Source: Halobacterium hubeiense | GTDB taxonomy: Archaea; Halobacteriota; Halobacteria; Halobacteriales; Halobacteriaceae | NCBI RefSeq assembly: GCF_001488575.1 | Contig: NZ_LN831302.1 | Coordinates: 1,178,001-1,242,000 of the forward strand | Length of the DNA: 64,000 bases | Reading direction: 5' to 3' | Part shown: one piece after another, positions 32,065-33,465 of the stretch | Position numbering within the stretch: the first letter of the stretch is position 1 | Layout: each line of letters starts with the position of its first letter | The notes under the pieces: generated by a model | What the model was told of the DNA's origin: nothing | What the model saw: only the letters and a program-made list of their open reading frames with translations | The model's database searches: none | Position numbers and translations under genes: made by a program

Positions 32065-32703
32065 CTAAGCCACCTCCACGGCGGGCCCCATCGTCGTCTT
32101 CACGTAGACTGCGTCGATGTTGAGCGGGCCCTTTTCGAGGTCCGCGTGCAGGCGGCGCAGGATGACGTCGATGTTGTCCGCGATGTCTTCGGCGGACATG
32201 TCCTCCGCGCCGACGCGCGTGTGGAACGTGCGACGGTCGCGGCTGCGAAGCTGCACGGTGTTTTTCATTCGGTTGACTGTCTCGACGACGTCGTCGTCGG
32301 GCTGGAGCGGCGTCGGCATCTTGCCGCGCGGACCGAGGACTTGACCGAGCGCACCCGCGATGTCCTGCATCATGGATGCTTCGGCCACGAAGAAGTCCGT
32401 CGCGTCAGCGAGGTCCTTCGCGGCGTCGTTGTCGTCGGCGAGGTCGGCGACTTCGTCGCCACCGTAGACCTCGTCCGCGACTTCCTCGGCTCGAACTGCG
32501 GTTTCGCCCTCTGCGAAAACCACAATCTGTGTCTCCTGTCCGGTGCCCGACGGCAGCACGACGCCCTCGTCGACACGATTCGACGGGTCGTTGAGGTCGA
32601 GGTCGCGCAGGTTGATCGCGAGGTCCACCGTCTCACGGAAATTCCGCTCTGGGGCCTCCTCGAGTGCGCGAGCTACGGCCTCTTCAATATCGTTGTCTGC
32701 CAT
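32065..32703 (-). CDS. rpl1: Ribosomal protein uL1
   Basis: A 212-residue protein of the L1 stalk, with the RNA-binding signature region [21 protein letters not shown] strong Shine-Dalgarno, GGAGGTG at 32708-32714, precedes the ATG. This is unlike the leaderless genes nearby and fits a leadered mRNA under translational control. First gene of the stalk operon. Confidence 0.97.
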
Positions 32704-32810
32704 CTTTCACCTCCGTAGTGCGTTGACCCTGTGAAGGTCGGATCTCCTACGGGTCAGTGAAACAGGCGAAGCCTGTCTCGCTTCGAGAGAGGGGCAACGC
32801 GTCCTTAAAA
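32704..32810 (-). promoter_or_regulatory. Leader and promoter of the L1-L10-L12 operon
   Basis: TTTTAA at 32805-32810 is the TATA box, giving a leader of roughly 75 bases. Within it, ACAGGC-GAA-GCCTGT (32762-32776) makes a perfect hairpin. CCGTAG (32713-32718) pairs with CTACGG (32747-32752), and that stem overlaps the Shine-Dalgarno at 32708-32714. Archaeal L1 is known to repress its own mRNA by binding a mimic of its rRNA site, so this leader is a good candidate. Confidence 0.6.
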
Positions 32811-32906: not shown

Positions 32907-33000
32907 GTTACGCCGCGGCTTCTTCTTCGCCGAGGACGCCGCAAATCAGAGATTTGCGTACTCTTGGCGCTGCTTACGCTGCCGCTTCCTCAGCGCCAAG
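32907..33000. repeat. Displaced duplicate of the uL11 C-terminal codons, with two hairpins
   Basis: On the minus strand the uL11 end (VLGAEEAAA, stop at 32974-32976) is repeated about 65 bases downstream as VLGEEEAAA with stop at 32908-32910. Of ten aligned codons only one changes the residue, and most others differ at the third base. Between them lie CTTGGCGCTG (32963-32972) matched by CAGCGCCAAG (32991-33000), and GCAAATC-AGA-GATTTGC (32941-32957). The layout looks like a small insertion that supplied a new gene end and pushed the old one aside. Confidence 0.6.
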
Positions 33001-33465
33001 AACCTCGTCATACTCGCCGGAGGCGACGCGCTCGTTGAACGTCCGCGCGTCCTCGCCCTCGATGGTGACACCCATGGAGGCGCAGGTGCCCGCGACTTCC
33101 TTCGCGGCGTTGCGGGTGTCGTACGCCAGCAGGTCGGGCTTCTTCTGCTCGGCGATGGTCTTCAGCTGCTCGATGGAGAGGTCCGCGACGAACTCCTCGT
33201 TGGGCTCGCCGGAGCCGGTCTCGAAGCCGGCCTCGTCCTTGATGAGGGCGGCCGTCGGCGGGACGCCGACCTCGATGCTGAACGACCCATCTTCCTCGTA
33301 CTCGATGGTGACCGGAACCTCCGTACCGTCGAAGGCAGCGGTCTGGTCGTTGATTTCCTGTACGACAGCCTGCACGTCGACGGGCGTCGGTCCGAGCTCG
33401 GGACCGAGCGGCGGGCCGGGGTCGGCCTGGCCGCCTGCCACGAGCACTTCGATCGTCTCAGCCAT
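32974..33465 (-). CDS. rpl11: Ribosomal protein uL11
   Basis: A 163-residue protein of the GTPase-associated centre. It opens MAETIEVLVAGGQADPGPPL with the conserved GPELGPTPVDVQ, and the C domain has DLLAYDTRNAAKEVAGTCASMGV, which binds 23S rRNA. The last nine codons occur again downstream in recoded form (see 32907-33000), so the annotated C terminus may be a replacement. It is separate from the L1-L10-L12 transcript. Confidence 0.97.
   Translation of the reverse strand: MAETIEVLVAGGQADPGPPLGPELGPTPVDVQAVVQEINDQTAAFDGTEVPVTIEYEEDGSFSIEVGVPPTAALIKDEAGFETGSGEPNEEFVADLSIEQLKTIAEQKKPDLLAYDTRNAAKEVAGTCASMGVTIEGEDARTFNERVASGEYDEVLGAEEAAA

Follow-up and report, generated by a model that had tools for sequence, protein, structure and literature searches.

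A repeated uL11 gene end in Halobacterium and a candidate family of very small double-hairpin elements in haloarchaea

The uL11 gene end

The window, a 64,000-nucleotide stretch of a Halobacterium chromosome (genome G000, C1:1178001-1242000), carries the uL11 (rpl11) gene on its minus strand, and the end of this gene occurs there twice. The features of the gene end are the following.

32974..33465, minus strand: uL11 (rpl11) coding sequence of 163 codons, with a substitute tail at its end (open reading frame list and tblastn)
32974..33003, minus strand: E1, the active proximal end VLGAEEAAA-stop (read from the sequence)
32963..33000, minus strand: hairpin B, CTTGGCGCTG ... CAGCGCCAAG, with 10-bp arms around the stop codon (sequence, fold and arm co-variation)
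32940..32958, minus strand: hairpin A, CGCAAATC-TCT-GATTTGCG, with an 8-bp stem and a 3-nt loop (sequence, and homologous A hairpins in relatives)
32936..33001, minus strand: putative inserted unit of 66 nt, as placed by the insertion model (comparison with the single-end relatives L004/L005)
32908..32937, minus strand: E2, the distal end VLGEEEAAA-stop, outside the gene (likeness to single-end congeners)

In the order of the minus strand, the uL11 end GTTCTTGGCGCTGAGGAAGCGGCAGCGTAA is followed by GCAGCGCCAAGAGTA, the A hairpin, the dinucleotide GC and then GTCCTCGGCGAAGAAGAAGCCGCGGCGTAA, the second end. E1 reads GTT CTT GGC GCT GAG GAA GCG GCA GCG TAA (33003..32974) and E2 reads GTC CTC GGC GAA GAA GAA GCC GCG GCG TAA (32937..32908); aligned at their stops, the two agree in 21 of the final 27 bases. 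The first-pass annotation had recognized that the end is present twice, which comparison confirms, and had placed the copies 65 bases apart, for which the measured offset is 66 bp. The ten-base-pair inverted repeat that it described across the active stop is likewise real: the arms of hairpin B, CTTGGCGCTG at 33000..32991 and CAGCGCCAAG at 32972..32963, pair exactly over 10 bp, or about 13 with G-U pairs. The second hairpin that it noted is present as well, although the stem is one of 8 bp and not 7.

Hairpin B takes its left arm from the first part of E1 and has the stop codon in its loop. When folded, the unit forms two clean adjacent hairpins; the homologous A hairpins of relatives have other stem sequences. 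In the insertion model the 66-nt unit extends from just after the GT of a Val codon to the GT before the old end, that is GT^[unit]^CCTCGGCG, and the GT at which it would have entered belongs to the Val codon of a conserved Asp-Val-Leu. Except for the uL11 tail the unit is non-coding, and it carries no integrase or recombinase.

Filled and single-end sites among congeners

Among 12 congeners, a single uL11 end is found in G001, G002, G003, G004, G006, G010, G011 and G012, and extra ends are found in G005 (two units), G007 (one), G008 (three) and G009 (one). The one end of the single-end relatives (L004/L005; G003/G011) is matched by both window copies, by E2 at 27-28 of 30 bases and by E1 at 24 of 30, and the flank downstream of E2 is colinear with that of G003/G011 (88%). 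An empty-site comparison among relatives had been proposed at the outset, and it turned out as anticipated, with several congeners single-ended and their end closest to the distal copy. As judged from these alignments, E1 fits the part of a newcomer end and E2 that of the resident old end.

Within this small clade the polarity may run either way. In a tree built from uL11, dnaK and an acyl-CoA dehydrogenase, G003/G011, which have no unit, branch among the carriers (support 0.57), so that gain and loss both occur. Because of this weakly supported position, together with a deletion scar at dnaK of G011, some single ends may be secondary losses.

Haloarchaea recombine often, and the repeated end could in principle have arrived by homologous recombination or gene conversion, in which the 3' part of uL11 from an array-bearing donor enters a single-end recipient, with the second crossover falling in the donor's copy of the end. 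The distribution of variants has some of the expected character: E1 and hairpin A are common to G000 and G008, G008 has besides two identical 76-bp units, one of them 91% identical to the unit of G009, and the tree sets the species among unit-free ones. Such exchange covers the spread of units, but not their origin, nor the in-frame inserts at one site of different paralogs that are described below, and as a full account of the locus it appears improbable. Gene conversion from a relative, which the first-pass annotation had offered as an alternative, is nonetheless a possible way in which copies could spread.

Chance controls and recurrence at uL11

The codons of the tail (GAG/GCG) are repetitive and GC-rich, so that chance or low complexity is an obvious candidate explanation for repeated ends, as is an assembly artefact. 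A scan for re-copied ends was applied to 1,490 long-ORF ends in 1.66 Mb (53%) of the G000 genome; random other downstream regions gave a maximum of 18/27, and apart from the uL11 locus this control was exceeded only in a few cases, which involved tRNAs or internal repeats. The scan is no census, because its crude longest-ORF caller missed dnaK. For the same reason the idea that uL11 is the sole target, which the half-genome scan had suggested, was withdrawn when dnaK proved to have the same arrangement.

The tblastn set comprised about 110 haloarchaeal uL11 loci. Within 320 bp downstream of the gene, uL11-like tail peptides with a stop occur on the same strand at 15 of 96 distinct loci and on the reverse strand at none of the 96; after other ORFs, taken as a control, they occur in 4 of 767 cases. 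The extra ends come from several families, with Halobacterium, Halarchaeum, Halorhabdus, Natrinema and others represented, and encode tails that differ from one another and are typical of uL11 (at one locus VLAEEVEA, VLASEAPA and VLADEAAA stand consecutively). The random-region, reverse-strand and other-gene controls for uL11 and dnaK refute the low-complexity origin that had been named as a way for the initial reading to fail, and recurrence across many independent assemblies argues against an artefact; either explanation is now scarcely credible.

Ends of dnaK

A scan of G000 for A hairpins flanked on the right by CGGYGT led to dnaK, which lies outside the window (C1:902089 region, L193/L428). 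There, the active end EEDSEE-stop is followed on its 3' side by a 12-bp, stop-spanning B hairpin and then by an A hairpin; further downstream stand FEEDDADE-stop and FEADD-stop, two older ends separated by double hairpins. A genome search for the hairpin pair, as the first-pass annotation had advised, thus has a divided outcome: the uL11 hairpin of the window is single-copy in G000, and a related double hairpin is present at dnaK of the same genome.

Extra dnaK ends occur on the sense strand at 7 of 30 haloarchaeal dnaK loci and on the reverse strand at none of the 30. G011 and G003 have B-arm scars only. In G003 the arm that follows the stop has changed from GTCTTC to GTCTGC, matching the change of the tail from GAAGAC to GCAGAC.

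Elsewhere in L193 (C1:913500-913800 of G000), the remnant of a tRNA 3' end lies downstream of a tRNA gene and is broken by a hairpin (GAAAGACGCAAGAGCGTCTTTC GGCGTTC), possibly another member of the double-hairpin family or an old attachment site.

In-frame inserts in acyl-CoA dehydrogenase genes

In comparisons of orthologous sequences, the clearest evidence of polarity comes from 51-bp in-frame inserts in three acyl-CoA dehydrogenase paralogs (L389/L398 of G012, L388/L478 of G005, L480 of G033, L489 of G009 and L490 of G011). The G012 gene contains a clean 51-bp insert in the antisense direction, GT^TCTGAGTCG...GTGT^CC, made up of GT^TCTGAGTCGCCGAAGTCGACTCAGA-GCT-CGCCGAGC-TCT-GCTCGGCG-GTGT^CC, and all 29 of the other aligned orthologs (29/29) are without it. 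Two further paralogs carry such inserts at the homologous codon. One is filled in G005 and G033 and empty in G001, G031 and others; the other is filled in G009 and G011 and empty in G010 and G007. The inserts encode the peptide TAEQSSA... at one homologous site, in a loop of the protein. Like the uL11 and dnaK units, they fold as two adjacent hairpins. The A hairpin CGCCGAGC/GCTCGGCG, with the loop TCT or TTT on that strand, is common to the inserts of G012, G005, G009 and G011; the B hairpins differ in sequence and keep their pairing intact.

These inserts bear directly on the proposal that the units result from recurrent mutation without movement, by in-situ slippage or template switching at hairpin-prone ends that copies an end together with its reverse complement. 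At uL11 and dnaK the right arms of the B hairpins are indeed complementary to the adjacent end, G008 has an exact tandem duplication of its 76-bp unit, and loops of the GTAA/GNA type at the stop codon would favour snap-back. However, hairpin A with its flanks (CTCG...CGGTGT) is common to unrelated sites and to different families and could not have come from the end beside it; in the acyl-CoA dehydrogenases, different species have the same A hairpin at one site between differing flanks; and the copies are adapted to their site, yet not identical to the neighbouring end. Because unrelated sites have hairpin A and its flanks in common, and because the in-frame inserts lack a local source for hairpin A, an element is favoured over local slippage, which we regard as a serious but unlikely explanation.

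Architecture of the family

The units at uL11, dnaK and the acyl-CoA dehydrogenases have a common junction, GT^[B hairpin - A hairpin - GTGT]^, with palindromes near both ends and no long target duplication. The boundary falls after GT in each case (GACGT^NCT at uL11, GACGT^CGAAG at dnaK and GCCGT^CCT at the acyl-CoA dehydrogenases), hairpin B precedes hairpin A, and the 3' terminus is ...CGGTGT or ...CGGCGT. Units measure about 50-80 nt, which leaves no room for a transposase, and members are alike in architecture and not in alignable sequence. Some 28 distinct A stems, from uL11, dnaK, acyl-CoA dehydrogenase and generic sites, are fully complementary, with very few G-U pairs among them. Each B arm agrees better with its own end than with other ends, at a mean of 7.17 versus 6.49 of 9 positions (40 ends), and 0 of 2,000 shuffles scored as high.

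Whether it is an RNA that is conserved may be asked of any hairpin pair in a 3'-UTR, where it could terminate, stabilize or regulate the uL11 and dnaK mRNAs, the repeats being by-products. In line with this, units lie directly after stops on the sense strand, one pairing is kept through G-U changes (G000 versus G008, window 33003-33001 with 32962-32960), and the post-stop arm at dnaK of G003 has been altered in step with its end. Most uL11 loci, those of close congeners included, nevertheless lack the unit, which in the acyl-CoA dehydrogenases is antisense within coding sequence, and a search of six loci against Rfam gave no match above the gathering score. A functional RNA is thus a distinctly improbable explanation. 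Since stems are replaced wholesale with almost no wobble intermediates, the sequences suggest that a DNA hairpin, double- or single-stranded, rather than an RNA may be what is kept or copied.

A strict-consensus search of 392 genomes recovers just part of the uL11 units and is incomplete because stems and junctions vary. The strict junction pattern led to arrays in G195 (HArc-gm2) of the form GGCGTCC[stem]CGAGCGNAGCGAG[stem]GGGCTCG[stem]...[stem]CGGCGTCC. With the flanks GGGCTCG...CGGCGTCC, there are 12 A-B-A-B arrays in this genome versus 0 in the reversed control; the G000 genome has few unit copies. Examples of the long arrays in G195 are L265 13160-13420 and L269 11216-11286, in which hairpins with GNA loops alternate, flanked by GGCGTCC and GGGCTCG. 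Cores of CGAGCGNAGCGAG number about 146 in G195, versus 33 for the reversed pattern.

Origin and movement of the units

Taking together the unit anatomy, the recurrence at particular sites, the GT junctions, the empty orthologs and the co-variation of arms that are observed, we put at somewhat better than even (roughly 55%) the probability that the 66-bp unit is one member of a family of double-hairpin elements, 50-80 nt in size, with the behaviour of mobile palindromic repeats. A tiny element that brings a substitute end was already the suggestion of the first-pass annotation. It is the best-fitting reading in view of the single-end congeners, the resemblance of E2 to their end and the same GT^...GTGT^ inserts opposite empty orthologs, although the movement itself we infer. 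The recurrence of such inserts at uL11, dnaK and metabolic genes in many haloarchaea suggests that they are mobile elements of very small size and of a kind not yet described. The match of the B arms to the end of the host gene points the other way, in that a free-moving element would not obviously bring such arms.

On the reading as mobile palindromic repeats, a double hairpin would insert 3' of a GT. At uL11 hairpin B would encode, in its 5' arm and loop, a complete substitute tail and stop, and therefore the essential uL11 protein would be kept and its former end left downstream as a non-coding relic. The relic could receive further copies, giving rise to arrays, and at dnaK the same process would have run with a different tail. 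In essential genes only inserts that yield an acceptable tail would survive. Homologous recombination at the conserved gene would probably carry site-adapted copies from one species to another, and tandem copies would grow and shrink as ends recombine with each other. The copies would move as single-stranded hairpin DNA, in a manner resembling peel-and-paste and not by local copying, and some recombinase would presumably act on them in trans. A further-reaching version is offered more tentatively: hairpin elements may exist throughout the class, mobile as folded single-stranded DNA, with lineages adapted to single genes that have repeatedly overwritten the C-termini of uL11 and DnaK, one arm serving as coding sequence and the loop supplying the stop.

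Several candidates for a mobilizer or carrier were rejected. A Y1 transposase was considered, but the distribution of its genes does not follow that of the units: no Y1_Tnp (PF01797) gene was found in the four unit carriers G005, G007, G008 (87% complete) and G012, and Y1 (IS200/IS605-type) transposase genes are most numerous in G003 and G011, both without a uL11 unit. Viral contigs gave 77 pattern matches and 0 true units. Plasmid matches to a metallo-hydrolase gene reflect internal coding similarity that is unrelated to the units.

Relation to known systems

Integrative elements of one kind enter a gene at its 3' end and use their attachment site to make the gene whole again. The uL11 locus has the same outcome, a working essential gene with an element-borne end (E1) and the old end beyond the insert (E2); unlike those elements, the unit is 66 bp long, has no integrase and no cargo, and its substitute end forms part of a hairpin arm. 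In integrons, attC arrays consist of sites that fold as single-strand hairpins with complementary arms. The likeness goes no further: no integrase is seen near the uL11 locus, and there are no cassette genes and no attC consensus.

Among described repeats, the PATEs of Haloquadratum include 52-bp, terminal-only forms that derive from IS605-type transposons and are thought to be mobilized (PMC3119063). They are likewise haloarchaeal and non-coding, with palindromes near the ends, no target duplication and a smallest size of about 52 bp (PMC3119063). As repeats PATEs are homogeneous and depend on ends of the IS605 type, whereas the double-hairpin units are hypervariable, were linked to no IS605-type end, and have carriers that can be without a Y1 gene.

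CGTC/GTAG REPs and the RPEs of Rickettsia are found at ORF ends and in frame inside proteins (PMC3733652, PMC10969869). As with the units, these are short palindromes with 8-9-bp stems that occur singly, paired or in arrays, mostly at the 3' ends of ORFs, and next to the stem they have a CGTC/TGTC motif that bears a superficial likeness to the CGGCGTC/CGGTGTC of the units (PMC3733652, PMC10969869). CGTC REPs and RPE-4 and RPE-6 are defined by an unpaired CGTC/TGTC tag, an 8-9-bp stem starting with A-T and a CCA tail (PMC3733652, PMC10969869). Unit stems start with C-G, their CGTC/TGTC is located 3' of the stem on that same strand and thereby on the opposite side from the tag of those REPs, and there is no CCA tail, so membership in the CGTC REPs was rejected. 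The units differ further in having two hairpins each, a fixed GT^...GTGT^ frame, complementary stems that vary freely, and a gene-specific substitute tail and stop at essential genes. In the broad sense they are REP-like, with the arrays of G195 and multi-copy palindromes near the 3' ends of uL11 and dnaK. By word search, the text of the REP survey (PMC3733652, PMC10969869) names no haloarchaeon, and no description of elements that give uL11 or dnaK substitute ends was found in the open-access literature, subscription papers being outside this scope.

Should the units prove mobile, they would rank with the smallest mobile units on record, and they would have solved the problem of entering essential genes by means of a gene-specific replacement end inside a hairpin. 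This would explain the high variability of haloarchaeal uL11 and DnaK C-termini, and the stacked old ends would be a natural record of repeated events at a known site. If instead local template switching gave rise to the units, they preserve an unusually clear trace of it at particular genes.

The uL11-uL1 interval

Between uL11 and uL1 the window genome has 270 bp only, and G009, G001, G010 and G005 (L003, L009, L010 and L008) have about 1 kb extra; in G009 this extra DNA apparently contains a methyltransferase-like gene on the opposite strand, as judged by eye. In G011, whose uL11 has no unit, a Y1 (IS200-type) transposase gene (C1:1337458-1337817, L463) is located some 3 kb downstream of uL11. 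At 32700-32790 of the window, minus strand, there is a highly conserved uL1 leader with the hairpin CAGGCTTCGCCTG and GACCCGTAGGAGATC...GGGTC. The leader is 98% identical even where the remaining gap differs, and is probably the uL1 autoregulatory mRNA site.
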